From: Streptomyces sp. NBC_01231
GTDB lineage: Bacteria; Actinomycetota; Actinomycetes; Streptomycetales; Streptomycetaceae
Length of the DNA: 64,000 bases
NCBI GenBank assembly: GCA_035999765.1
Contig: CP108521.1
Location: 9,362,001-9,426,000, forward strand
Direction: 5' to 3'
Positions 19,141-35,917 of the stretch are shown here, piece after piece (positions within the stretch are counted from its first letter, which is position 1; each line of letters opens with the position of its first letter). The notes beneath the pieces were generated by a model. It was not told the origin of the DNA, made no database searches, and saw only the letters and a program-made list of their open reading frames with translations. The translations under genes were made by a program, and so were the position numbers.

Positions 19141-20220
19141 TCAGCAACAGCCCGCCGCGTGCGCGCTCGTGGTCGCCGACGTCGTCGCCGCGGGGGTGGC
19201 GGCCTGCTGATCCTGGGCGATGCGGCCGCGCAGCATGGTCTCCACGATCTTCATGAAGCGCTGTGCTCCCGAGGTGCCCACGACGAACGGGTTCTCGCGA
19301 CCGTTCGGCGCACCGCGCAGCTCCTCCATGCGCTCGAGCCCGTAGTCGACGAAGCCGTGGTTGCTCAGCTCGACGTCGACCCCGGCCCGTTTCATCCGGG
19401 AGGCGAAGGTGAGGGCGGAGGAGAGGTAGGCCTCCTTGCTCGCGGTGGCCGTGGGCGGGTTGGTGCCGCCCCACAGCATCGCGGTGTGGGCGCGGCCCTG
19501 CCGACGGGCCGGGAAGATCGGCGAGACGGTGCCGGGTGTGTGACCCGGGGTGTGGTGGAGCGTCACGGTGGTGCCGCCCAGTGTCAGCTTCTGGCCGTCG
19601 GCGATGTCCAGGTCGCGGGTGGGCGCGTTGGCCGGGGACGTGGAGGCGACGAGGTCCCAGTCGGCAGGGGCCATCATGACCCGGGCGCCGTACTGGTCGG
19701 CCAGGTACTGGGCGCCGCCGAAGTGGTCGCCGTGGCCGTGGGTGACCACGACGTACTTGATCGTCGAAGGGTCGGCCCCCACGTCGCGCAGTCCGGAGAC
19801 GATGTACTGCTCTGCCTCGTCCGGTGTGTCGAGGGCGTCGATGAGGATGATGCCGCGTGGCGTGAGGATCGCCGTGGCGGACACGAAACCGACGCTGAGC
19901 ACGGCGACGTTGTCGAAGATCCGCAGCGGCGCGGGAGCGGGCGGCCTCGGCGGGGTGTAGCCGGCGGTGAGCCCGCTGACCAGGCTCTTGAGGACCGGGT
20001 TGTCTCCGGCCAGTTCGGCGGCGCGGTCGAAGTACTCCTGCGCGGTCGGGTCCGCGGACGCCGAGGTCTCGGCGGAGGCGTACTCGGGAAGCAGCGAAGC
20101 CGCGCCGGCGGTGACCGCCGCGGCGGCGCCGAGCTGCCAGAAGCGGCGGCGCGTCAGGGCTCCGTGGGGGCGGCCTGCGGGCGATGCCGGGCGGGTGGGG
20201 TCGGTTTGCGGCTCGTTCAT
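19141..20220 (-). CDS. Tat-exported metallo-beta-lactamase-fold hydrolase
   Basis: This 359-residue protein begins with a twin-arginine signal (LTRRRFWQLGAAAAVTAG, cleavage probably after YASAET or nearby), so it should be folded before export. The MBL zinc motif H-x-H-x-D-H is present as THGHGDHFGGAQ near residue 160, with the third-ligand histidine in LHHTPGHTPGTVSP. The layout resembles subclass B3-like and quorum-lactonase-like extracytoplasmic hydrolases; substrate is unknown. AAGGAGC precedes the ATG. It is the third gene of the leftward arm of the PucR regulon (class II aldolase, MHS transporter, this gene), 52 bp after the transporter stop. Confidence 0.8.
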   Translation of the reverse strand: MNEPQTDPTRPASPAGRPHGALTRRRFWQLGAAAAVTAGAASLLPEYASAETSASADPTAQEYFDRAAELAGDNPVLKSLVSGLTAGYTPPRPPAPAPLRIFDNVAVLSVGFVSATAILTPRGIILIDALDTPDEAEQYIVSGLRDVGADPSTIKYVVVTHGHGDHFGGAQYLADQYGARVMMAPADWDLVASTSPANAPTRDLDIADGQKLTLGGTTVTLHHTPGHTPGTVSPIFPARRQGRAHTAMLWGGTNPPTATASKEAYLSSALTFASRMKRAGVDVELSNHGFVDYGLERMEELRGAPNGRENPFVVGTSGAQRFMKIVETMLRGRIAQDQQAATPAATTSATTSAHAAGCC

Positions 20221-20272: not shown

Positions 20273-21613
20273 TCAGGCGGTCACGACCGCCTGCTCGTCC
20301 TTCTCGCCGGCTTCGGCGTCACTCAGCGGCACACCCTGGGGTTCCTTCAGGAAGAAGGTGACGGCGAGCCCGATCACCGTCACCGCCGCGAGGTAGACGC
20401 CGACGGAGTACACGGTGCCGGTGCCGGCCTGCAGGGCTTCGGCGATCATGGGGGCGAAGGCGCCGCCCAGGACGGCTCCGACGGCGTACGACAGCGCCGC
20501 ACCGCTGTACCGGACGGCCGTCGGGTACAGCTCCGCGAACAGGGCGGCCTGCGGCCCGTAGGTGAGCCCCAGGCCGATGCTGTAGAGGACGAGCGCCACC
20601 ACGACGAGACCGGCGTTCGCCGTGTTGAGCAGCGCGAAGAACGGGAACATCCACGCGAGTTGGATGACGAAGCCGATCCGGTAGACGCGCAGGCGGCCGA
20701 GCCGGTCGGACAGCCGGCCACCCGCCAGGGTGCTGGCCAGCCAGCCGACCGCGGCGACCATCACGCAGATCAGGATCAGCGTCGGGTCCATGCCCAGGTG
20801 GTTCACGGCGTAGCTCTGGACGTAGCCGCCGGTGGTCATGTAGCCGACGGCGTTGTTGGCGGCGAAGAGCAGGGCACCGGCCACGACGAGCGGCCAGTGG
20901 TGCTTGAACAGCACGGCGATCGGGGCGCGCGATCGGCTCCCGGTCTGTTTCAGCTCCTGATAGACGGGGCTTTCCTCGACCCTGCGCCGGATGACGAACC
21001 CGGCGGCGACGAGGACGACGCTGAGCAGGAAGGGGATGCGCCAGCCCCAGGCGAGGAACTGGTCGTCCGTGGTGAGAGCGGTGACGGCCGCCAGGGCGCC
21101 GTTGGCCAGCAACAGACCCAGCGGTGCGCCGAGTTGGGGGTAGGAACCGAACCGTCCGCGCTGTGCCGCGGGTGCGTGCTCCACCGAGATCAGCGCGGCG
21201 CCGCCCCACTCGCCGCCGGCGGACAGACCCTGGAGGATCCGCAGGAGGACGAGAATGATCGGGGCGCCCGTGCCGATGGATGCGGACGACGGCACGAGGC
21301 CGATCAGGGTGGTGGAGACGCCCATGAGCAGCAGGGTGGCGATGAGCATCGCGCGGCGGCCGAGCCGGTCACCGAGATGGCCGGCGAGTGCGGCTCCGAC
21401 CGGCCGGAAGAAGAAGCTGATGCCGATGGTCGCGAAGGAGATGACCAGCGAGTCCTCGCCGAGCCCGTCGAAGAACTGGCTGCTGAACACCAGTCCCGTG
21501 CACAGGGCGTAGATGAAGAAGTCGTACCACTCGATGGTGGTGCCCGCCATGGCGGCGAGCGCGACGGTGCGGTGCTGACTCTGCGTGCCGGATGCCTGAG
21601 CGGATGGGGACAT
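20273..21613 (-). CDS. MHS-family MFS transporter for an organic or aromatic acid
   Basis: This 446-residue protein has the metabolite:H+ symporter layout with about 12 membrane segments. The family-specific start TIEWYDFFIYALCTGLVF, the loop 2-3 motif GHLGDRLGRRAMLIATLL, and LRILQGLSAGGEWGGAALIS are all visible. MHS transporters import acids such as shikimate, proline-betaine, 4-methylmuconolactone or protocatechuate together with protons. The placement between a class II aldolase and an exported hydrolase in an aromatic regulon suggests uptake of the pathway substrate. A 67-bp gap separates it from the aldolase gene; it is probably cotranscribed. Confidence 0.85.
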   Translation of the reverse strand: MSPSAQASGTQSQHRTVALAAMAGTTIEWYDFFIYALCTGLVFSSQFFDGLGEDSLVISFATIGISFFFRPVGAALAGHLGDRLGRRAMLIATLLLMGVSTTLIGLVPSSASIGTGAPIILVLLRILQGLSAGGEWGGAALISVEHAPAAQRGRFGSYPQLGAPLGLLLANGALAAVTALTTDDQFLAWGWRIPFLLSVVLVAAGFVIRRRVEESPVYQELKQTGSRSRAPIAVLFKHHWPLVVAGALLFAANNAVGYMTTGGYVQSYAVNHLGMDPTLILICVMVAAVGWLASTLAGGRLSDRLGRLRVYRIGFVIQLAWMFPFFALLNTANAGLVVVALVLYSIGLGLTYGPQAALFAELYPTAVRYSGAALSYAVGAVLGGAFAPMIAEALQAGTGTVYSVGVYLAAVTVIGLAVTFFLKEPQGVPLSDAEAGEKDEQAVVTA

Positions 21614-21680: not shown

Positions 21681-22460
21681 TCAGACGGCGTAGTCGGGGG
21701 CGATGCGGTCGATCCTGCGGCGCAGTGCGTCGAACAGGGTCCTGCCCGCCTCCGTACGGTCGCCCATCTGGAAGGACTCCTTGGTCGAGCGCACCGCAGC
21801 CTCCCGGCTCACCGGGGTCAGCGGCTGCCCGGACTGCTGGGCGGCGAGCTGGATCTCGCAGGCCCGTTGCAGAGTCCACAGGGCGGCGAAGGCAGCGGGG
21901 ACGGTCGGCCCCACCGCCAGCAGGCCGTGGTTGCGCAGGATCATCAGGTCGCGGTCACCGAGGTCGGCCACCAGCCGTGGCTTCTCCTCCGGGTCGACGG
22001 TGATGCCCTCGAAGTCGTGGTAGGCGACCATGTCGTGCAGTTGGGCGGCGTAGAAGTTGTCCGGGTCCAGTCCGCCGCGCAGACAGGCGACTCCGGTGCC
22101 GGCGGTGGTGTGGGTGTGCATGATGCAGTGCGCGTCGGACCGGTTGGCGTGGATCACCGAGTGGATCAGCAACCCCGCCTCGTTGACCGGCCAGTCCGAG
22201 TCCGACAGGACGTTGCCGTCGAGGTCGATCTTCACCAGGTTCGACGCGGTCACCTCGTCGTACATCAGGCCGAACGGATTGATCAGCAGGTGCCCCTCCT
22301 CACCGGGCACCCGGACGGTGATGTGGTTGAAGATCATCTCCACCCATCCGAGGTGGTGGAAGACGCGGTAGCAGGCGGCGAGTTCGAGCCGCGCCCGCCA
22401 CTCCGCGTCGCTCATGTACGCCGGTTTCGCCGTGCTCGTCGGGGTGTCCAGAACGGTCAC
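21681..22460 (-). CDS. Class II aldolase/adducin-family protein
   Basis: This 259-residue protein has the zinc lyase fold of the L-fuculose-phosphate aldolase family. Metal-binding histidines are visible in CIMHTHTTAG (HxH) and in the later ILRNHGLLAVG, and SDAEWRARLELAACYRVFHH is the usual N-terminal helix. Some members are aldolases of sugar phosphates and some decarboxylate hydroxyaromatic acids; the aromatic context makes a lyase or decarboxylase role plausible. The GTG at 22460, preceded by AAGGAG, is preferred over upstream codons. Two TGTCG-N4-CGACA operators lie 94-139 bp upstream. Confidence 0.82.
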   Translation of the reverse strand: MTVLDTPTSTAKPAYMSDAEWRARLELAACYRVFHHLGWVEMIFNHITVRVPGEEGHLLINPFGLMYDEVTASNLVKIDLDGNVLSDSDWPVNEAGLLIHSVIHANRSDAHCIMHTHTTAGTGVACLRGGLDPDNFYAAQLHDMVAYHDFEGITVDPEEKPRLVADLGDRDLMILRNHGLLAVGPTVPAAFAALWTLQRACEIQLAAQQSGQPLTPVSREAAVRSTKESFQMGDRTEAGRTLFDALRRRIDRIAPDYAV

Positions 22461-22553
22461 TGCCGTGCTCCTTGATTGCTGCGTGGGTATCGCCGGTATC
22501 GGGTGACGGCCTCGGTGTGCAGGAGCATGGGTGCGCGACCGCTCGGGAGCCAA

Positions 22554-22599
22554 TGTCGGGCTCGACAGTGAATCCGGCCAGGTGGTGTCCGATGCGACA
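22554..22599. promoter_or_regulatory. Paired operators upstream of the class II aldolase operon
   Basis: Site D, TGTCG-GGCT-CGACA (22554-22567), is a perfect inverted repeat. Site C, TGTCC-GATG-CGACA (22586-22599), has one mismatch. Their centres are 32 bp apart, about three helical turns, exactly as in the pair at 24245-24290. Site C ends one base before the pucR stop triplet, so the aldolase promoter region directly adjoins the end of pucR. The likely binder is the PucR-family regulator encoded alongside. Confidence 0.7.
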
Positions 22600-24222
22600 T
22601 CAGTCGGTCGGAGGCGGCTCCGACAGGCCGGCAAGCGCCGTCAGTTCCAGTGTCAGCAGAAGGCGCCGTGTCGGATCGGCGAGCGCCACGTCGAAGAGTT
22701 GCTCGGCCCGGCGCAGCCGCAGCCGCAACGTGTTCTGGTGAATGTGCAACTCGGCGCTGGACGCGGCGACATCGCCGAAATGCCGCAGATAGCTGAGCAG
22801 CGTGGCGCAGTAGTCGGTGGCGTGTTCGGCGTCGTGTGACCGCAGGCGTTCCGCGATGCCGGTGCGCAGTTCGGCGTCCTCGCGTACGGCGCCGACGAGC
22901 CGCCGCAGCACCAGCTCCGGCCGCAGGTCCTCGGCGTGGTACGCGCCAGGGCCGGCGCACTGCTCCCGGAGGTGGTCAAGCGCGGCGTCGATGTCGCGGC
23001 GGGCCGCGAGCAGGGCGGAAGTCGTCCCGACCGTGGGGGAGTCGACCGCCGTGAACGACCGGTGCAAGCTGTGCCGGGCCCGGTCCAGGAGGTGGTCCAG
23101 CAGGACACCGGTGGACACGGAGCCGGAACCGGCGGTCGGCAGCAACACGTAGACACGGTCGTCGAGCAGGGCCGCCGCCGGTTCGTACCCGAGGGAGCGC
23201 CCGTCGAGGACGGCCAGATCCAGCGCCCGAAGCAGAGCGGCGCGGCGTCGAGCCGCGGTACCGGCTTCCCACGACTCCTCGTCGCCGCGCTTTCGTACCG
23301 CCTCGGCCAGCCCGATCAGCACGGCGGGAAGGCGGACTCCGCCGGGCGGGTCGCCCTGCCCCGACCGGCCCTCCAGCGCGTGACGCAGCGCGCGGTCGCG
23401 ACTCTCCTGCTCGGCGTCGACCTGGCGGCGCAGCGCCAGCATGTGCAGCGCCGCGACCCGGGCCGCCTCCTGGAGGGTGGGCCCGCAGTCGGAGGCGGCA
23501 GCCTCGTCGGGAAACGCGACCCAGAGGGAACCGAGCACGTCCTCGCCCGCCCTGATGACCACGGCCGTGCGCGGCAGATCCCCGGCCCGGTGCCGGGGTA
23601 CGACCGTGTCGCTCACCCACACCTCCCGGTCCAGGTGATCGGCGAGCGCGTCCTCGGGCACCCGCCTGCCCAGGATCCCGCGCCGCCGGGTCTCGTCGAT
23701 GGGCTGGTCGGGCAGGTTCGAGTAGGCGACCACCACCTGCTGCGTGTCCATGATCGCGACAGCGCCGCCGACGATGCCGGCGACCGCGTTGGCCAGGGAG
23801 AACAGGTCGCCGCCCGTCGCTCCACCGCTCGGTTCCGCAACCGCCGCACGCGCGGCCAGGATGGTCGTGACCAGGCGCTGCACACGCGTCCACGGCACCT
23901 GCGGATCGACGGCCAGGACGGGGACGCCGGCCCCGTCGACCTGCGCCGACACCTCCGGCGGCGGGGGAGTGGGGCACTTGACGGCGAGTGCGCAGGAATG
24001 GTCCGCCGCCGTTCGAAGGGCCGCGCCCAACGCGTCACGGTCGGCGATGTCCACACCGACCCCGAGCAGCAGATGCCCGGGTGCGGTGGTCCCGAGTGCC
24101 TCCGGAGAGTCCAGCAACTCGACGCCCTTGACGCGCCATTCAGCATCACCGCCATCGGACAGCAGGCTGATGACACCGCCTCGCAGGGCCTCGACGAGCT
24201 GCTCGAGGGGCATCGCGGTCAT
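22600..24222 (-). CDS. PucR/CdaR-family transcriptional regulator
   Basis: This 540-residue protein has the PucR three-part layout: an N-terminal sensing domain (about 1-135), a GAF-like middle domain (about 155-260, LANAVAGIVGGAVAIMDTQQ) and a C-terminal helix-turn-helix of the HTH_30 type (AELHIHQNTLRLRLRRAEQL). Proteins of this group commonly activate catabolic genes in response to a pathway compound. GGAGGG 5 bases upstream supports the ATG at 24222. It is divergent from the PanE-like gene, and the region between them holds two operators; a second pair flanks its 3' end in front of the aldolase gene. That makes it the prime candidate regulator of both arms. Confidence 0.88.
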   Translation of the reverse strand: MTAMPLEQLVEALRGGVISLLSDGGDAEWRVKGVELLDSPEALGTTAPGHLLLGVGVDIADRDALGAALRTAADHSCALAVKCPTPPPPEVSAQVDGAGVPVLAVDPQVPWTRVQRLVTTILAARAAVAEPSGGATGGDLFSLANAVAGIVGGAVAIMDTQQVVVAYSNLPDQPIDETRRRGILGRRVPEDALADHLDREVWVSDTVVPRHRAGDLPRTAVVIRAGEDVLGSLWVAFPDEAAASDCGPTLQEAARVAALHMLALRRQVDAEQESRDRALRHALEGRSGQGDPPGGVRLPAVLIGLAEAVRKRGDEESWEAGTAARRRAALLRALDLAVLDGRSLGYEPAAALLDDRVYVLLPTAGSGSVSTGVLLDHLLDRARHSLHRSFTAVDSPTVGTTSALLAARRDIDAALDHLREQCAGPGAYHAEDLRPELVLRRLVGAVREDAELRTGIAERLRSHDAEHATDYCATLLSYLRHFGDVAASSAELHIHQNTLRLRLRRAEQLFDVALADPTRRLLLTLELTALAGLSEPPPTD

Positions 24223-24244
24223 GGCGACCCTCCGTTCACGGTGA

Positions 24245-24290
24245 TGTCGGAATCTACATCACGCAACCTCCGTGAGTGTAGGCATCGACA
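24245..24290. promoter_or_regulatory. Paired operators between pucR and the PanE-like gene
   Basis: Site A, TGTCG-GAAT-CTACA (24245-24258), sits inside a longer inverted repeat GTGATGT-N8-ACATCAC. Site B is TGTAG-GCAT-CGACA (24277-24290). Each differs by one base from the TGTCG-N4-CGACA consensus. Centre-to-centre distance is 32 bp. Site A lies only 23 bp from the pucR ATG, which suggests that pucR is itself controlled, while site B lies upstream of the rightward operon. Confidence 0.7.
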
Positions 24291-24382
24291 TTGTTGCGGG
24301 CTGCGAGGCGGCGCATGCTCGCTGCGAACGGCCACACCGGCCCGTGGCCACACCGGCCCACGGCCACACCCGCAAAGGAGGC

Positions 24383-25444
24383 GTGACGGCGTTGTCGCAT
24401 TCACCCGCATCCCCACCGCACAGCCGCCCACCTCGGATCACCGTCGTGGGCCCGGGTGCCGTCGGCGCCACCCTCGCCGGGGCGTTCGACGCCTCGGGCG
24501 CCGAGGTCTCCCTGCTCGGACGGCCCGGCCCGCACCTCGACGCAATCGCCGCGCAGGGGCTCCTGCTGTGTGGCCGGGAAACGGGAGTCGGCCACACAGC
24601 AGGCGAGGTCCGCCATCACTTCCCCACAGCACACGACGCAGCGCGGCTCCCCGTCCCGGACCTGGCCGTCGTCTGCGTCAAGAGCCAGTACCTGCTCCCG
24701 GCCACCCGCGGTATCCGCACCTGGGTCGAGCACGGTGTGGACGTGCTGGTCGTGGCCAACGGAGTGCCCTGGTGGCTGCCGTCCACCGCCGAGCGCACCG
24801 GGGAAGACCCCGTGCTGCGATCGGTCGACCCCGACGGGGAACTGCTGCGGCTGCTGCCCGCCGAGCGGGTGATGTCCGGTGTGGCGCACTTCAGCAGCGC
24901 CGTCGAGGGCCCGGGCCGCGTGACACACCTCAGCGGTGACAGGCTGCTCATCGGCGACCCGACAGGCGGGATCTCCGACCGCGTCCACCGGTGCGCCGCG
25001 GCCCTCTCCGCAGGTCCAGTCCGCCCGGAACCCAGCGCGGACATCCGCCGGGACATCTGGGAAAAGCTGCTGGGCAACGTCAATCTCAACCCCGTCAGCG
25101 CACTCACCGGTGCCACCGTCCTCGACATCCTCGACGACCCGGACGTACGGCAGGTCTGCGCCGCCATGTTCGACGAGGCAGCGGCCGTCGGTACGGCACT
25201 GGGCATCAAGAGCGCCATGACGGCCGACGAACGGCTCGACATCGCCCGCGAGCTCGGCGCGTTCCGCACCTCCATGCTGCAGGACGCGGACCGGGACCGG
25301 CCCCTCGAACTCGACGCGATCGTCGGTGCCGTACGCGAACTCGCGCGCCGCACCGGTGTGCCGTCCCCCTCCCTCGACGCGGTGCACGGACTGCTCGCCC
25401 TGCGCGAGCGCGTTCGCGGCCACGGCGAGTCGTCCGCCAGGTGA
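24383..25444 (+). CDS. Ketopantoate reductase-like (PanE/ApbA) dehydrogenase
   Basis: The protein is about 350 residues. The N-terminal Rossmann motif ITVVGPGAVGATLAGAFDAS and the helical C-terminal domain (EKLLGNVNLNPVSALTGATV, a strong PanE signature with the conserved lysine and asparagine) are clear. PanE proper makes pantoate, but relatives in catabolic clusters reduce other 2-oxo acids; that is more likely here. The start is uncertain. AAAGGAGG ends 1 base before GTG 24383, too close, whereas TTG 24392 lies 10 bases away and gives a protein three residues shorter. It is the first gene of the rightward operon under operators A and B. Confidence 0.8.
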   Translation: MTALSHSPASPPHSRPPRITVVGPGAVGATLAGAFDASGAEVSLLGRPGPHLDAIAAQGLLLCGRETGVGHTAGEVRHHFPTAHDAARLPVPDLAVVCVKSQYLLPATRGIRTWVEHGVDVLVVANGVPWWLPSTAERTGEDPVLRSVDPDGELLRLLPAERVMSGVAHFSSAVEGPGRVTHLSGDRLLIGDPTGGISDRVHRCAAALSAGPVRPEPSADIRRDIWEKLLGNVNLNPVSALTGATVLDILDDPDVRQVCAAMFDEAAAVGTALGIKSAMTADERLDIARELGAFRTSMLQDADRDRPLELDAIVGAVRELARRTGVPSPSLDAVHGLLALRERVRGHGESSAR

Positions 25445-25454
25445 AGGAGCCCCG

Positions 25455-26897
25455 GTGCCACACCCCTTGGGGAACCCCCCATCGAAGATCATCGCCGTCC
25501 ATCTCAACTTCCGCAGCCGCGCCAAGGAGCGCGGCCGGACCCCCGCTCATCCCTCCTATTTCCTCAAGCCGCCGTCGTCGCTGGCCGGCACTCAGGAGAC
25601 GATCGTCCGGCCGCGCGGCTGCCAACTCATGGGCTTCGAGGGTGAGATCGCCCTCGTCATCGGCTCACGGGCCCGGCAGGTGCGGCCGGAGGACGGCTGG
25701 CGCCACGTGCGCTGGGTGACCGCCGCCAACGACGCGGGCGTGTACGACCTGCGGTACGCCGACCGCGGCTCCAACCTGCGCTCCAAAGGCGCGGACGGCT
25801 TCACCCCGATCGGGCCACGGCTGCTGGACGCCACCGAACTCGACCCCGGCGCACTGCGGTTGCGGACCTGGGTCAACGGTGAGCCGGTCCAGGACGACAC
25901 GACCGACACCCTGCTGTTCCCGTTCGGCGAGCTGGTCGCGGACCTGTCCAGACTGGTCACCCTGGAACCCGGGGACGTGATCCTCACCGGCACACCGGCC
26001 GGGTCCTCGGTGGTCGAACCGGGCGACGTGGTCGAAGTCGAGGTCAGCGACGGCCGGTTGAGCACCGGAGTGCTGCGCAACCCGATCGCCTCCGCCGAAC
26101 ACGACCTGGAGCCGTGGGGCGCGCAGCCCAGGACGGACCGGGCCGAGGAGGAGTCGGCGTACGGATCCACGTACGTCCCCGAGCCGCTACTGGACGAGGC
26201 ACTCGCCCGCGGTCTCCGCTCGGTTGCCGTGGCGACGATCAGCGCGCAGTTGCGGCGGCGCGGCCTGCCGCACATGTCCGTCGACGGGGTGCACCCCGCC
26301 ACGCGCGGCACCCGCCTGGTGGGCGTGGCACACACCCTGCGCTATCTGCCGCTGCGCGAGGACCTGTTCGAGAAGTACGGCACCGGCATGAACGCCCAGA
26401 AGAGGGCGATCGAGGAACTCCGGCCCGGACATGTGCTGGTGATGGACGCCCGACGGGACACCTCCGCCGGAACGCTGGGCGACATCCTCGCCCTGCGTGC
26501 CCAGCAGCGTGGCGCGGCCGGGGTGGTGACCGACGGAGGGCTGCGGGACAGCGCGGCCGTCGCCGCCCTTGGACTGCCCGTGTTCCATGGCGGAGCCCAC
26601 CCGTCGGTGCTCGGCCGCCGTCACGTCCCGTGGGACACGGGCGTTCCGGTCGCCTGCGGCGGGGCGCTGGTCCAGCCCGGCGACCTGATGGTCGGTGACG
26701 ACGACGGGGTCGTGGTCGTCCCGCCTGAGCTGGCCGGAGAGGTGATCGCCGACTGCCGGGAGCAGGAGCGGCAGGAGCGGTTCATCACCGAACAGGTGGC
26801 CGGCGGCGAGAGCGTCGACGGCCTGTATCCGCTGGGTCCTGCCTGGCGGGATGCCTATGAGAACTGGTGCAAGGGAGAGAACAGTGAAGTTCCGTAG
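25455..26897 (+). CDS. Fusion of FAH-type isomerase/hydrolase and RraA-like aldolase/decarboxylase domains
   Basis: This 480-residue protein joins two enzymes. Residues about 10-215 form a fumarylacetoacetate hydrolase-like domain (KIIAVHLNFRSRAKERG, the E-x-E metal pair in GFEGEIALVIG, and VILTGTPAGSSVVEPGD). Residues about 245-465 form an RraA-like domain with the class II HMG/CHA aldolase motif VVTDGGLRDSAAVAALG and the ending LMVGDDDGVVVVP. In the homoprotocatechuate pathway HpaG/HpcE has two FAH domains, one isomerase and one decarboxylase. Here the second is replaced by a fold known to decarboxylate oxaloacetate-like acids. GGAG 5 bases before the GTG at 25455 supports this start. The next gene overlaps it by 14 bp. 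Confidence 0.85.
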   Translation: MPHPLGNPPSKIIAVHLNFRSRAKERGRTPAHPSYFLKPPSSLAGTQETIVRPRGCQLMGFEGEIALVIGSRARQVRPEDGWRHVRWVTAANDAGVYDLRYADRGSNLRSKGADGFTPIGPRLLDATELDPGALRLRTWVNGEPVQDDTTDTLLFPFGELVADLSRLVTLEPGDVILTGTPAGSSVVEPGDVVEVEVSDGRLSTGVLRNPIASAEHDLEPWGAQPRTDRAEEESAYGSTYVPEPLLDEALARGLRSVAVATISAQLRRRGLPHMSVDGVHPATRGTRLVGVAHTLRYLPLREDLFEKYGTGMNAQKRAIEELRPGHVLVMDARRDTSAGTLGDILALRAQQRGAAGVVTDGGLRDSAAVAALGLPVFHGGAHPSVLGRRHVPWDTGVPVACGGALVQPGDLMVGDDDGVVVVPPELAGEVIADCREQERQERFITEQVAGGESVDGLYPLGPAWRDAYENWCKGENSEVP

Positions 26898-27810
26898 CGA
26901 CCCGTCCAGGATCCGCGGCTCGATCGCCCCGGTCGTCACCCCCTTCACGGCCGAGGGCGCCGTCGACCACGAATCCCTGCGGGAGCTGATCCGCTTTCAG
27001 CTGGAGTCCGGGTCGCACGGCATCTCGCTGGGCGGCTCGACCGGTGAGCCCAGTGCCCAGTCCGTCGCCGAGCGGATCGCAGGGATGTGTACGGCGGTGG
27101 AGGAGATCGGCGACCGGGTGCCGTTCCTGCCCGGCACCGGCTCCCACAAGCTGGACGAGACCCTTGAACTCACGGCCGCAGCCGAGGAGTTGGGCGCGGA
27201 CGCGGCCCTGGTCATCACGCCGTACTACGCGCGCCCCACCCAGGAGGCCCTCTACACCTGGTACGCCACGGTGGCCCGGGAGTTCCCGGACCTGCCGATC
27301 GTCGCCTACAACGTGCCCTCCCGCACGGCGGTGGACATCGCGCCGGAGACGGTCAGGCGGCTGTTCACCGACGTCGAGAACTTCGTCGGGGTGAAGGAGA
27401 CGACGAAGGACTTCGAGCACTTCTCCCGCGTGCTGCACGCCTGCGGACGCTCGCTGCTGGTGTGGTCCGGGATCGAGCTGCTGTGCCTGCCCCTGTTGGC
27501 GCTCGGCGGCGCCGGTTTCGTCTCCGCCGTGGCCAACCTGGCCCCGACCGCGGTGGCGCGGATGTACGAGCTGTGGGAGGCGGGTGACTTCGAGGCCGCC
27601 CGTGATCTGCACTACCGGCTGCACCCGCTGGTCGACCTGCTGTTCGTGGAGACCAATCCGGCACCCGCCAAGTGGGTCCTCGCCCAGCAGGGCCGCATCG
27701 CCTCCGCCCACGTCCGCCCGCCGTTGACGACACCCACCGAGGCGGGCCTGACGAAGATCCGCGCGCTGCTGGCCGAGGGCGGCGACCTCACCGCACAGAT
27801 CGGAGCGTGA
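26884..27810 (+). CDS. Dihydrodipicolinate synthase-family lyase (DapA/NahE-like)
   Basis: This 308-residue TIM-barrel protein carries the family signature GGSTGEPSA near residue 50, the tyrosine Y142 in AYNVPSRTAVD, and the Schiff-base lysine K171 in VGVKETTKD, so aldolase chemistry should be intact. The biosynthetic enzyme is rarely found in catabolic operons; relatives include N-acetylneuraminate lyase and the hydratase-aldolases of aromatic degradation. In this operon it could cleave a 4-hydroxy-2-oxo acid into pyruvate plus an aldehyde, standing in for HpaI. The GTG at 26884 follows GGGAGAG and overlaps the previous gene by 14 bp. It is probably not dapA for lysine. Confidence 0.85.
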   Translation: MKFRSDPSRIRGSIAPVVTPFTAEGAVDHESLRELIRFQLESGSHGISLGGSTGEPSAQSVAERIAGMCTAVEEIGDRVPFLPGTGSHKLDETLELTAAAEELGADAALVITPYYARPTQEALYTWYATVAREFPDLPIVAYNVPSRTAVDIAPETVRRLFTDVENFVGVKETTKDFEHFSRVLHACGRSLLVWSGIELLCLPLLALGGAGFVSAVANLAPTAVARMYELWEAGDFEAARDLHYRLHPLVDLLFVETNPAPAKWVLAQQGRIASAHVRPPLTTPTEAGLTKIRALLAEGGDLTAQIGA

Positions 27811-27812
27811 CC

Positions 27813-29300
27813 ATGAGCGTGAGCATCGAGAACCTGCCTCCCGTCATCCGGCACTGGATCGGCGGCGAGTTGGTCGACAGCGCCGACGGGCGGACGTTCC
27901 CCGTGGCCGATCCGGTGACCAACACGTCCTACGCCAAGGCCGCGGCCGGCGGCCCGGCCGACGTCGAACGGGCGGTCGCGGCCGCCAGGTCCGCCTTCCC
28001 CGCCTGGTCGTCCCTCGGCAACCGGGAACGCGCGAACGTGCTGAACCGCATCGCGGACGCCGTCGAGGCCCGCCACGAGCGGCTGGCGTCCTTCGAGTCG
28101 TACGACACGGGACTCCCCATCACCCAGGCCCGCGGCCAGGCCCGGCGCGCCGCCGAGAACTTCCGCTACTTCGCCGACGTGATCGTCGCCCTCGGCGAGG
28201 AGTCCTTCCGGCAGGGTGACGAGCAGTTCAGTTACGTGGTGCGCAAGCCGGTCGGCGTTGCCGGGCTCATCACGCCGTGGAACACCCCCTTCATGCTGGA
28301 GAGCTGGAAGCTGGCCCCGGCCCTGGCCTCCGGCTGCACGCTGGTCCTCAAGCCCGCCGAGTGGACCCCGCTGTCCGCCTCGCTGTGGCCGGAGATCTTC
28401 GCCGACGCAGGAGTGCCCGACGGGGTGGTCAACATCGTCCACGGCATCGGCGAGGAGGCGGGCCAGGCACTGGTCGACCACCCGGACGTACCGCTGATCT
28501 CCTTCACCGGCTCCACCGACACGGGCCGCCACATCATCAGGTCGAGTGCCCAGCACCTGAAGACCACCTCGATGGAGCTGGGCGGCAAGTCCCCGGCTGT
28601 CGTCTTCGCGGACGCCGACCTGGAAGCCGCACTCGACTCGGTCGTCTTCGGGGTGTTCTCCCTCAACGGCGAGCGCTGCACGGCCGGTTCACGTGTCCTG
28701 GTGGAGCGTCCGGTGTACGAGGAGTTCACCCGCCGTCTGACGGAACGGGCGGACGCCGTCCGCGTCGGGCCGCCCTCCGACCCGGCCACCGAGGTGGGCG
28801 CGCTGGTCCACCCCGAGCACTACGAACGCGTCCTGACCTACGTCGAGATCGGCAAGAAGGAGGCCCGCCTCGTCGCCGGCGGCACCCGGCCGGCGCATAT
28901 GGCGGACGGCAACTACCTTCAGCCGACCGTCTTCGCGGACGTCGACCGTGACGCCCGCATCTTCCAGGAGGAGATCTTCGGCCCCGTAGTCGCCGTCGCC
29001 CCCTTCGACGACGAGTCCGAGGCGATCGAGCTGGCCAACGCCACCCAGTACGGTCTCGCCGCCTACATCTGGACCTCGGACCTCAAGCGCGGCCACCGCA
29101 TCGCCCACGCCGTCGAGTCCGGCATGGTCTGGATCAACTCCCACAACGTACGGGACCTGCGCACCCCCTTCGGCGGGGTCAAGGCCTCCGGCGTCGGCCG
29201 CGAGGGCGGCGCCCACTCCATCGACTTCTACACCGAGTCGAAGATCGTCCACGTCGCCCTCGGCGACGTCCATACCCCCCGCTTCGGAGCCGCCCGATGA
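27813..29300 (+). CDS. hpaE: Aldehyde dehydrogenase, probable 5-carboxymethyl-2-hydroxymuconate semialdehyde dehydrogenase
   Basis: This 495-residue NAD(P)-dependent aldehyde dehydrogenase has the family elements [20 protein letters not shown], the general base in TTSMELGGKSP, and the catalytic cysteine C289 in LNGERCTAGSR. The ending SGVGREGGAHSIDFYTESK fits HpaE/HpcC, which oxidises the ring-cleavage product of homoprotocatechuate. It sits directly before the extradiol dioxygenase gene, whose ATG overlaps this stop (ATGA). GGAG lies 8 bases upstream of its ATG. Another aromatic semialdehyde is possible if the dioxygenase acts on a related catechol. Confidence 0.83.
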   Translation: MSVSIENLPPVIRHWIGGELVDSADGRTFPVADPVTNTSYAKAAAGGPADVERAVAAARSAFPAWSSLGNRERANVLNRIADAVEARHERLASFESYDTGLPITQARGQARRAAENFRYFADVIVALGEESFRQGDEQFSYVVRKPVGVAGLITPWNTPFMLESWKLAPALASGCTLVLKPAEWTPLSASLWPEIFADAGVPDGVVNIVHGIGEEAGQALVDHPDVPLISFTGSTDTGRHIIRSSAQHLKTTSMELGGKSPAVVFADADLEAALDSVVFGVFSLNGERCTAGSRVLVERPVYEEFTRRLTERADAVRVGPPSDPATEVGALVHPEHYERVLTYVEIGKKEARLVAGGTRPAHMADGNYLQPTVFADVDRDARIFQEEIFGPVVAVAPFDDESEAIELANATQYGLAAYIWTSDLKRGHRIAHAVESGMVWINSHNVRDLRTPFGGVKASGVGREGGAHSIDFYTESKIVHVALGDVHTPRFGAAR

Positions 29301-30307
29301 CCAGCGCGCACCCGGACGCCCCGGACGTCGTCCGCTCCGCCTACGCCCAGCTGGCCGTCACCGATCTCGCCGCATCCCGCTGGTTCTGGGTCGACATGCT
29401 CGGTTTCCACGTCCAGTACGAGGACGCCGGCACCCTGTGCCTGCGCGGCACCGACGAGTTGACCCACCACTCCCTCGTCCTGCGCGGGGGCGAGCTCGCC
29501 GCCCTCGACCACATCGCCTACCGGGTCCGCACCCCCGAGGACGTCGACAAGGCGGAGAAGTTCTTCACCGGCCTCGGCCGACCGGTGCGGCGCATCCGCA
29601 AGGGCGACGGCACGCCCGGTGTCGGCGACGCCGTCCGCGTCATCGACCCGCTCGGCTTCCCCGTCGAGTTCTTCCACGACATCGAGCACGCCGAACGCCT
29701 CATCCAGCGCTACGACCTGCGCCACGGCGCCGAGATCGCCCGCCTGGACCACTTCAACATCTGCACCCCCGACATCCCCGCCGCCTACGCCCACTACAAG
29801 TCGCTCGGTTTCGGCTGTTCGGAGACCATCGAGGGCGACGAGCACGAGCTGTACGCGGCCTGGATGTACCGCAAGCAGACCGTCCACGACGTCGCCTTCA
29901 CCTGCGGCGCCGGACCCCGCCTGCACCACCTCGGCGTCGCCACCCACGAATCCCACCAAGTCCTGCGCGCCGCGGACCTGTTCGGCTCGATCCGCAAGGA
30001 ACACCACATCGAACGCGGCCCCGGCCGGCACGGCGTCTCCAACGCCTTCTACCTCTACCTGCGCGATCCCGACGGGCACCGGGTGGAGATCTACACCTCC
30101 GACTACTACACCGGCGACCCCGACCACGAGACGTACCGCTGGAACGTCCACGACGACCGCCGCCGCGACTTCTGGGGCAACGCCGTCATCGAGTCCTGGT
30201 ACAAGGAGGCCGCCCCCGTCCTCGGCCTCGACGGGAGCCCACAGCTCGTCTCCGACGCCGTGCTGGACGAGTCCGCCGTGCAGGTCGGCGCGGACGGCCT
30301 CGGCTGA
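29297..30307 (+). CDS. hpaD: Extradiol dioxygenase, 3,4-dihydroxyphenylacetate 2,3-dioxygenase type
   Basis: This 336-residue protein is a two-domain vicinal-oxygen-chelate dioxygenase. The expected metal ligands are H152 (RLDHFNICTPD), H210 or H211 (PRLHHLGVATHE) and E264 (GHRVEIYTSDYY). The C-terminal tail NVHDDRRRDFWGNAVIESWY is typical of the homoprotocatechuate enzymes of actinobacteria (Brevibacterium and Arthrobacter HPCD/MndD), which use Fe(II) or Mn(II). It would open 3,4-dihydroxyphenylacetate to 5-carboxymethyl-2-hydroxymuconate semialdehyde, the substrate of the preceding gene. It is the last gene of the operon. No phenylacetate hydroxylase gene is seen in the window. Confidence 0.88.
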   Translation: MTSAHPDAPDVVRSAYAQLAVTDLAASRWFWVDMLGFHVQYEDAGTLCLRGTDELTHHSLVLRGGELAALDHIAYRVRTPEDVDKAEKFFTGLGRPVRRIRKGDGTPGVGDAVRVIDPLGFPVEFFHDIEHAERLIQRYDLRHGAEIARLDHFNICTPDIPAAYAHYKSLGFGCSETIEGDEHELYAAWMYRKQTVHDVAFTCGAGPRLHHLGVATHESHQVLRAADLFGSIRKEHHIERGPGRHGVSNAFYLYLRDPDGHRVEIYTSDYYTGDPDHETYRWNVHDDRRRDFWGNAVIESWYKEAAPVLGLDGSPQLVSDAVLDESAVQVGADGLG

Positions 30308-32413: not shown

Positions 32414-33880
32414 TCAGCGCTGGCGTGTCAGCAGACCCGGACGGTAGGGCAGGAGGCCGTAGTCGCCGCCGGAGTTGGGGCTGCGCCCCTGGTAGAGCAA
32501 CTGCAGATTGCAGGGATCGACGGTCATGGTCTGATCCGCGCTGGTGCGGATCAGTTCGCCGTGGCTGATGTCGTTGGTCCAGGTGGCGCCACTGTTGGCC
32601 TTGCCGGCGAAGGGATTGCTCTCGGTCGCGGCCTGGGGTGTCCATGAGCCGTTCAGACTGGTGGCCGTGAACGAGCGGAAGTAGCGGCCCTGCGAGCCGA
32701 TCGCCTCGACGATCATGAGGTAGCGGTTCTGGCCCTGGAGCTTGTAGACCTGCGGGGCTTCGAACAGGTTGTTCGTCGTATCGCTCATGACCACGGTCGA
32801 GGTCGAACCGAAGCTGCCCGGGAAGTTCCCGATCGGCATGCCGGCCCGGTAGATCTTGCCGTTGTCACCGGCGAAGAACAGGTACATGTTCGTCCCGTCA
32901 CCGATGAGCGTCTGGTCGATGGGTCCTGTTCCGGAGCCGGAGATGCTTCCGGAGAAGAGCACCTGCTGGGATGACCAGCCATTCGGGTTGGTGGGGTCGC
33001 TCGACGTCCGGTAGGAGAAGGCGGTCCCGCCCCACTGGTAGGCGAGCACCCAGATGTTCTTCGGCGCGAAGTAGAAGAGCGTGGGCGCGACGGTGGAGGA
33101 CGACATCGTGTTCTGACCGGCCGAGGCCATCTCCGACCAGTTGGTGAACAGGCCGAAGTTCATCGAACCCCAACTCGTCCCCGTGTCGTGCGTCGTCGCA
33201 TAGACGAGTTGCCTGCCGTTGTAGGGGACGACGGTGAAGTCCTTGAGCGAGACCCATCCCTGCTTGGGCTGCGCCAGCGCGCCCGTTGATGTCCAGCGAT
33301 AGGTCGACGGAAGATCGCACGGGCCGGAAGTGTCGCCGCCGACCTTGACGAGCTGCCACTGCTGGTTGGTGCCGCCCCAGTCGTCGTACTGGACGATGTT
33401 CGCGCTGTCGGTGGTGGAGGCGCCCTGCACTTCGAGAGCCTTGTTGCTGTGGCGCGAGATGAGCCTCACGTAGCCGTCCGAGCTGTCGGCCAGCCGCCAC
33501 TGCTGGTTGGTGGCGTTCAGGTCGGTCCACTGGACGATCGCGCCGCCGTTCGCGGTGGACCAGTTGTTGACGTCCAGCACCTTGCCCGAGTGGCGGGACT
33601 TGATGCGGTAGTAACCGCCCCCGGAATCGACGAACTGCCACTGCTGTTGGGCCTGGTCGTTCCTGGACCACTGAGTGATGCGGGCGCCGTCGGCGCTCGC
33701 CATGTTGTAGAGGTCCAGGGCCTTGCCGCTGTTGCGGTTGACCAGCACATACGAGGCGTTGGGGTCTACGGTCGCCGCGCCGGCGGGCTGGGCACCGAGG
33801 AAGGTGGCCACGAGCAGCAAGGGCGCAAGGACGGCGAGTAAGCGTCTTAGACGGACCGGGGACGGGTGGCGAAACCACAT
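32414..33880 (-). CDS. Secreted GH62 alpha-L-arabinofuranosidase with N-terminal CBM13
   Basis: This 488-residue enzyme removes arabinose side chains from arabinoxylan. It has a Sec signal peptide ([19 protein letters not shown], cleavage near GAQPAGA), a ricin-type CBM13 with three QxW repeats (residues about 42-175) and a GH62 five-bladed propeller (about 185-488). Catalytic positions are the base Asp in [13 protein letters not shown], the Asp in [12 protein letters not shown] and the acid Glu in [20 protein letters not shown], 8 bases upstream, fixes the ATG at 33880. Codon 14 (33839-33841) is TTA, so translation probably depends on the bldA tRNA. It is divergent from the GH10 xylanase gene. 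Confidence 0.92.
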
Positions 33881-34102
33881 CAGAGGGCCTCCTTTGGGGG
33901 TGGGGGTGAGGTGACCCGATGAACCGCTGGGCAGACGTGCCGGAGGGGCAGGCACCGTCTCGAAACATTCGAAGAATTCCCGGATGCTTTGACGCCACAA
34001 GCTAGGAATGTGGGGCCCTCTGGTCAAGGCCTGTCGCCGATCTGTCCACAAACAGCGCCTCCGTGGCGCCGGGGGTTCGCCGTCCGGCTCGCCGGGATCC
34101 CG

Positions 34103-34387: not shown

Positions 34388-35917
<1,530 letters not shown>

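Follow-up and report, generated by a model that had tools for sequence, protein, structure and literature searches.

Few PucR-type regulators have been studied, as the report on GabR of Corynebacterium glutamicum points out (PMC7652997). GabR, itself PucR-type and an activator, recognizes two inverted repeats in the gabTDP promoter, between -87 and -23 and just upstream of the -35; single sites are bound more weakly, mutating both sites nearly abolishes binding, and the protein is an octamer in solution (PMC7652997). Inferred from the fragment ends printed in that paper, the spacing of the GabR repeats is at most ~34 bp. MabR of Mycobacterium tuberculosis forms dimers and tetramers in solution; its description leaves the DNA-binding oligomer open, favouring the dimer, and reports that the recognition helices would best fit neighbouring major grooves, at 34 Å (PMC11617747). 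Escherichia coli CdaR, of the HTH_30 family, is a PucR-type activator of the galactarate and glucarate genes (PMC7652997; annotation). Among the matches listed from the openly licensed PMC literature, taken without supplements, a paired operator was found for no PucR-type member but GabR.

We analysed a window of 64,000 nucleotides from Streptomyces sp. NBC_01231 (contig CP108521.1, positions 9,362,001 to 9,426,000), in which two paired operators flank a pucR gene (Table 1). As with GabR, a PucR-type regulator lies beside a catabolic operon and two inverted repeats lie next to the -35, which is a predicted one here (PMC7652997). The GabR repeat is 21 bp long, whereas the motif here has 14 bp and a constant spacing of 32 bp; in the sections of the GabR report drawn on here, one divergent operon is the known target (PMC7652997), whereas in the window the regulator has a promoter of one common design on each side. 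MabR shares the PucR-family helix-turn-helix, and its helix distance suits a palindrome whose half-sites, like those found here, are about one turn apart, but its N-terminal domain is globin-like (PMC11617747). HpaR also controls homoprotocatechuate meta-cleavage genes (the hpa-meta operon), but it belongs to another regulator family, as a MarR-family repressor (PMC7180172). The proposed operator belongs with the GabR kind; it has a motif of its own, its spacing is fixed, and promoters on both flanks of pucR carry it. The original prediction knew of no described operator of such design for an HpaD-type operon. That holds in the literature so covered, but a paired PucR-type operator was already known for GabR (PMC7652997). 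The motif string had no match in the openly licensed PMC literature without supplements, and none of the best-ranked matches there brought homoprotocatechuate, Streptomyces and PucR together.

Two putative operator pairs around pucR

Both arms had been described as divergent; only the PanE arm diverges from pucR, while the aldolase gene lies in tandem with pucR on the same strand. Pair A follows the pucR stop codon and precedes the aldolase gene; pair B is located between pucR and the PanE-like gene. The predicted four 14-bp sites, one a perfect TGTCG-N4-CGACA and three with one mismatch, are all in place, and their coordinates confirm an identical centre-to-centre distance of 32 bp in pair A and in pair B. 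The accompanying claim that the sites occur only here is right for the 32-bp pairs, which are unique in the genome, and wrong for single sites. Ten single sites with at most one mismatch occur in the window, against 4.6 expected (at least 10 were reached in 2 of 100 shuffles), the six beyond the pairs being at 2897, 14911, 17287, 33331, 42622 and 59995; the genome has 996, of which 17 are perfect. Given these numbers in window and genome, we rejected the significance of single sites. The pairing, unlike the single sites, is significant: TGTCGN4CGACA-N18-TGTCGN4CGACA with at most three mismatches occurs at 2 places in 11,338,389 bp, both at the pucR locus (1 place in the genome for the reversed control).

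Table 1. Positions of genes, operator sites and predicted promoter elements in the window
Feature	Positions	Strand	Remarks
MBL-fold hydrolase	19141..20220	-	none over cut-off among the NCBIfam matches listed (25 of 42)
MFS metabolite:H+ symporter	20273..21613	-	closest NCBIfam 2A0106, below cut-off
Class II aldolase/adducin-family protein	21681..22460	-	NCBIfam PRK07044 subfamily, over cut-off; GTG start 22458-22460
-10-like CATGCT, aldolase arm	22524..22529	-	spacer 18 bp; exact in 12/12 rows
-35-like TTGGCT, aldolase arm	22548..22553	-	TTG in 12/12 rows
Pair A, proximal site	22554..22567	-	TGTCGGGCTCGACA, perfect (0 mismatches); abuts -35-like TTG of aldolase promoter
Pair A, distal site	22586..22599	-	TGTCCGATGCGACA as read on +, 1 mismatch; adjoins pucR stop codon
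pucR, 540-aa PucR-type regulator	22600..24222	-	over the HTH_30 cut-off; proposed to bind the four sites
Pair B, distal site	24245..24258	+	TGTCGGAATCTACA, 1 mismatch; 22 bp from pucR ATG
Pair B, proximal site	24277..24290	+	TGTAGGCATCGACA, 1 mismatch; abuts -35-like TTG of PanE promoter
-35-like TTGTTG, PanE arm	24291..24296	+	TTG in 13/14 rows
-10-like CATGCT, PanE arm	24314..24319	+	spacer 17 bp; exact in 12/14 rows (not L020, L028)
PanE/ApbA-like reductase	24392..25444	+	TTG start 24392 set by comparison with ATG of L010
FAH-RraA fusion	25326..26897	+	NCBIfam PRK12764 over cut-off
DapA-family aldolase	26851..27810	+	over dapA cut-off; 356.4 bits to 'HpaI-NOT-DapA' exception model, cut-off 396.7
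HpaE, 5-carboxymethyl-2-hydroxymuconate semialdehyde dehydrogenase	27672..29300	+	681.4 bits, NCBIfam equivalog cut-off 638.35
HpaD, 3,4-dihydroxyphenylacetate 2,3-dioxygenase	29297..30307	+	376.8 bits, NCBIfam equivalog cut-off 321.4

The spacing is also the feature that a scan singles out. At the pucR promoters (the pair B side) of 14 loci, a spacing of 32 bp gives a summed best mismatch of 37; the runner-up among 47 spacings scores 78, and the median is 99. Some loci also have weaker pairs in the aldolase promoter, at 26, 57 or 58 bp, in which a third, partial site takes part. The average information is 1.35-1.93 bits in the half-site columns, 0.79-0.93 in the 18-bp spacer and 0.85-1.24 in the 4-bp inner gaps; the most conserved columns, at 1.88-2.0 bits, are those of the proximal outer half-site and the TTG. 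The inner half-sites of pair B are mostly CTACA/TGTAG, possibly because pair B and the pucR promoter overlap. With just 22 bp between pair B and the pucR ATG, that promoter has to be located within the operator or on its far side.

The PanE arm holds a homoprotocatechuate meta-cleavage set in which HpaD and HpaE both pass equivalog cut-offs. HpaG and HpaI models were not passed: the FAH half of the fusion scores 151.8 bits to the HpaG C-terminal model (cut-off 276.4), and the DapA-type protein also stays below the cut-off of its HpaI exception model. Perhaps these two are relatives that replace the enterobacterial HpaG and HpaI genes. The MBL-fold protein of the other arm reaches 98 bits to subclass B3 metallo-beta-lactamase profiles with cut-offs of at least 240, and is therefore not a called lactamase. 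Beside the HpaD cluster are GH62 and GH10 glycosidases (32414-34051 on the minus strand and 34487-35917 on the plus strand), each with ricin-type lectin domains, which we read as a plant-biomass neighbourhood.

Conservation of the pairs and co-occurrence with pucR

Twenty-one PucR relatives were compared, those of 15 loci (the window, L010 and L017-L029) together with L033, L034, L035, L101, L102 and the second PucR of L024; a scan of named genomes had given 13 loci, some from the same species, and each locus is counted once. Conservation beside orthologous pucR genes, the check proposed with the original prediction, was borne out. All 14 relatives with at least 51% PucR identity have a pair at exactly 32 bp in the pucR promoter (2-4 mismatches in 20 fixed positions), and none was found at the 7 relatives with at most 38% identity (L029 from Arthrobacter, L033, L034, L035, L101, L102 and the second PucR of L024), five of which were examined over ~1.5 kb on each side. 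Locus L102 has a perfect single TGTCGGGCTCGACA, as at window position 22554, at 1382-1395 and 3' of its 34%-identical PucR gene, and no pair.

The aldolase promoter has a pair at 32 bp in all 12 loci in which the aldolase follows pucR; that of L022 is degenerate (5 mismatches of 20 by hand count), and the aldolase of L024 was matched only in pieces. Pair B is weaker, with 4 mismatches of 20, in S. caniscabiei, S. ipomoeae and strain TRM68416, all of which retain pucR. In Actinacidiphila (L026) the aldolase gene is placed between pucR and PanE, and a single pair is found there. Nonomuraea, with a PucR 51% identical, keeps the pair before a different operon, encoding an FAD/Fe-S oxidoreductase and an MFS symporter. 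These patterns bear on the idea that the pairs arose by chance or recent duplication and have no function. One-mismatch single sites are indeed common, as the 996 in the genome attest, but the spacer and inner gaps have diverged and the half-sites and 32-bp spacing have stayed fixed down to 51% PucR identity. With the uniqueness of the pair in the genome, the spacing scan and the co-occurrence described below also speaking strongly against it, we regard this idea as almost certainly wrong.

An ortholog of pucR is present in 6 of 295 Streptomyces genomes, the source genome included. The composite operator pattern, composed after the loci had been seen, occurs with at most one mismatch in the same 6 genomes and in 0 of the 289 others. 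It was found at 11 places in these 6 genomes, and each place is on a pucR contig; no control match was among those listed. The six genomes are not independent events, because the cluster is common by descent. Relaxed to two mismatches, the composite gave five chance matches away from the pucR locus in 15 genomes, plus a duplicate in S. phyllanthi. This duplicate (L121, 1320-1824) is a decayed copy of the pucR-aldolase junction in which operator and promoter are retained. S. humi (L127) has an additional operator before an MBL paralog, 5.4 kb from pucR. Searches for plasmid copies gave no match at E 1e-40; among 200 genomes of the Nonomuraea family, the one with a match was Nonomuraea itself, and sampling 396 genomes of the phylum and 394 of the class brought in distant relatives only.

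Could a regulator other than PucR bind the pairs, with pucR a mere passenger of the cluster? Binding by PucR is a prediction from sequence, and the genome has 27 HTH_30 matches (26 over cut-off) and surely many regulators of further families. However, the composite with at most one mismatch is missing from all 289 Streptomyces genomes searched that lack this pucR, pucR alone among the window genes searched for adjoins a pair in all 14 loci, and a local regulator is to be expected because the pair is unique in the genome. We consider another binder very unlikely.

The original proposal that the two arms form one pathway is only partly supported. The arrangement in Actinacidiphila, with the aldolase gene between pucR and PanE and one pair, agrees with the proposal. 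In S. caniscabiei (L136, 6907-11454) and S. ipomoeae (L137, 2682-7535), the FAH-RraA, DapA, HpaE and HpaD genes are located away from pucR, and no paired operator was found in the 20.0 kb and 13.3 kb examined around the relocated HpaD genes, respectively; the aldolase arm keeps its operator in both species. HpaD was looked for in 7 genomes of these loci and found in 4, the exceptions being TRM68416, Nonomuraea and S. flaveus, whose contig ends inside HpaE. Because the relocated HpaD genes have no paired operator, the operator follows pucR and not the HpaD genes. This favours PucR as the binder and weakens the view that both arms are always one pathway. The comparison supports an operator that tracks the regulator rather than the operon.

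Promoter architecture and proposed mechanism

New in this analysis is that in both arms the proximal half-site CGACA directly abuts a -35-like TTG, with CATGCT following 17-18 bp past the hexamer. The exact pattern CGACATTG-N19..22-CATGCTC occurs at 2 places in the genome, which are the two arms, and its reversed control at 0. The B promoters of Nonomuraea and S. ipomoeae are without an exact CATGCT, and in that of S. caniscabiei TCG replaces TTG. In L022 and L027 the PanE ATG comes 7 nt after CATGCT, a distance consistent with a leaderless start and in support of the -10 assignment. Relative to the predicted starts, the proximal sites would be centred near -42/-43 and the distal sites near -74/-75. 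A promoter with an operator of the GabR kind has two inverted repeats a short way upstream of its -35, and this is what is found here with a sequence-predicted -35. With promoters so predicted, the arrangement has class-II activator geometry, as published for GabR.

The regulator itself has a C-terminal helix-turn-helix (PF13556, 52.7 bits, cut-off 27). Its match to the N-terminal PucR domain (PF07905) reaches 27.1 bits, against a cut-off of 33.5; this domain is precomputed for some close homologs, such as P0004 and P0014. The GGDEF-like middle domain (PF17853) has no Pfam match in PucR; such a domain is not strictly required of PucR-type regulators, since GabR is reported to lack it (PMC7652997). 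An AlphaFold2 model from a 13-sequence alignment (mean pLDDT 77.5, pTM 0.51) places an alpha/beta part at residues 1-125, a second alpha/beta stretch, of low confidence in part, at ~138-240, a long helix at 247-284, and an alpha/beta stretch at 298-420, the expected GGDEF-like position, before a helical C-terminal part. The best Foldseek matches to the model are 3onq and the C-terminal MabR fragment 9f80, with target-normalised TM-scores of ~0.4, and the next ones include CodY with its GAF domain. We infer which parts of PucR these matches correspond to, and the structural evidence is modest.

Quite probably, the two pairs are operators of the adjacent PucR-type regulator, which would act as an activator of two look-alike promoters. 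Each palindrome, TGTCG-N4-CKACA, would be taken by one PucR dimer, and two dimers, most likely forming one tetramer, would occupy one face of the DNA at a distance of three helical turns. Of these, the proximal dimer, near -42/-43, would touch the -35, with the distal dimer near -74/-75. With an aromatic-pathway metabolite bound, PucR would bring RNA polymerase to two promoters built alike, that of the aldolase-MFS-MBL genes and that of PanE/FAH-RraA/DapA/HpaE/HpaD. Expression of pucR itself would be restrained as well, through pair B at its distance of 22 bp from the start codon.

Promoter-adjacent operators are common among repressors, and here the proximal half-site CGACA touches the -35-like TTG. 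PucR might thus bind the pairs and repress both arms, the proximal dimer blocking the -35. However, the site is upstream of the -35 and not over the spacer or the -10, and the predicted -35 hexamers are weak past the TTG, as expected of an activated promoter. GabR, likewise positioned, is an activator, and the PucR regulators listed in the GabR paper are all activators save the dual PucR of Bacillus subtilis (PMC7652997). Repression therefore seems unlikely, and activation by PucR is the reading we prefer.

Spacing in other PucR-family regulons

The regulator L081 was chosen from its gene layout for a comparison outside this regulon, and the prediction, an inverted-repeat pair at 30-34 bp abutting the -35, was fixed before its orthologs had been seen. 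This GabR-like PucR paralog (L081/L138; G000:C1:9906700-9908400) is divergent from an aminotransferase gene that we read, from its sequence, as gabT-like. Of 30 Streptomyces loci fetched, the 24 with the divergent gabT-like gene were used; L154, L162, L163, L164, L166 and L167, without the gene in the flank, were dropped. An ungapped block is common to the 24 promoters, and it contains a direct repeat spaced 31 bp (z 6.9, 0/300 column shuffles; next z 2.9); a rerun gave z 6.7 with 0/500 shuffles, and a subset of 6 sequences z 6.8. The same scan on the PucR locus returned 32 bp, with z 8.5 for pair B and 6.9 for pair A. By hand reading, the proximal paralog element adjoins a -35 of the TTG type, and in L138 a 17-bp spacer separates this -35 from GATGCT. 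Spacing and -35 abutment thus came out as predicted, the latter by hand reading, but the palindromy did not, the elements being poor palindromes.

In a third paralog clade, 14 promoters were fetched and the 9 with a common block used, L162, L163, L166, L167 and L168 being set aside because their upstream regions differ. At the low power of 9 promoters, the best z is 2.2, at 39 and 29 bp, and the value at 31 bp is 1.7. In E. coli MG1655, the palindrome-like word GGCATTTGCACAATGCC is matched at 17/17 positions upstream of cdaR (L177 900-916), at 14/17 (L178 9031-9047) and 12/17 between garP and garD, and at best 10/17 at gudP. It is a candidate CdaR site; no pair at 31-32 bp was found in the CdaR promoters, unlike the PucR operator here. 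We also tried reading paralog pairs from single sequences in 24 regions, covering 25 of the 27 HTH_30 matches with this locus among them, and found the approach uninformative because the true pair ranked only fourth in its own region.

Tentatively, actinobacterial PucR-family activators might share a design of two elements 31-32 bp, or three helical turns, apart, the proximal one against the -35, read by a tetramer and varying in element sequence by paralog. We hold this generalization to be rather more doubtful than secure. Such a family-wide rule is a lead and not a result, as it held in two regulons and was unsupported in the third clade and in E. coli CdaR.

PucR-type regulators are numerous, as the 27 HTH_30 matches in this genome alone illustrate. 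The double operator is conserved in Streptomyces and as far away as Nonomuraea, in most Streptomyces loci at two promoters, and its composite allows the regulon to be located by a sequence search. Since its two elements are a fixed three helical turns apart and it touches the -35, a single protein and short pieces of DNA would suffice to test directly which oligomer binds. The operator is the likely landing pad at which one protein would switch on a cluster for the degradation of aromatic compounds.
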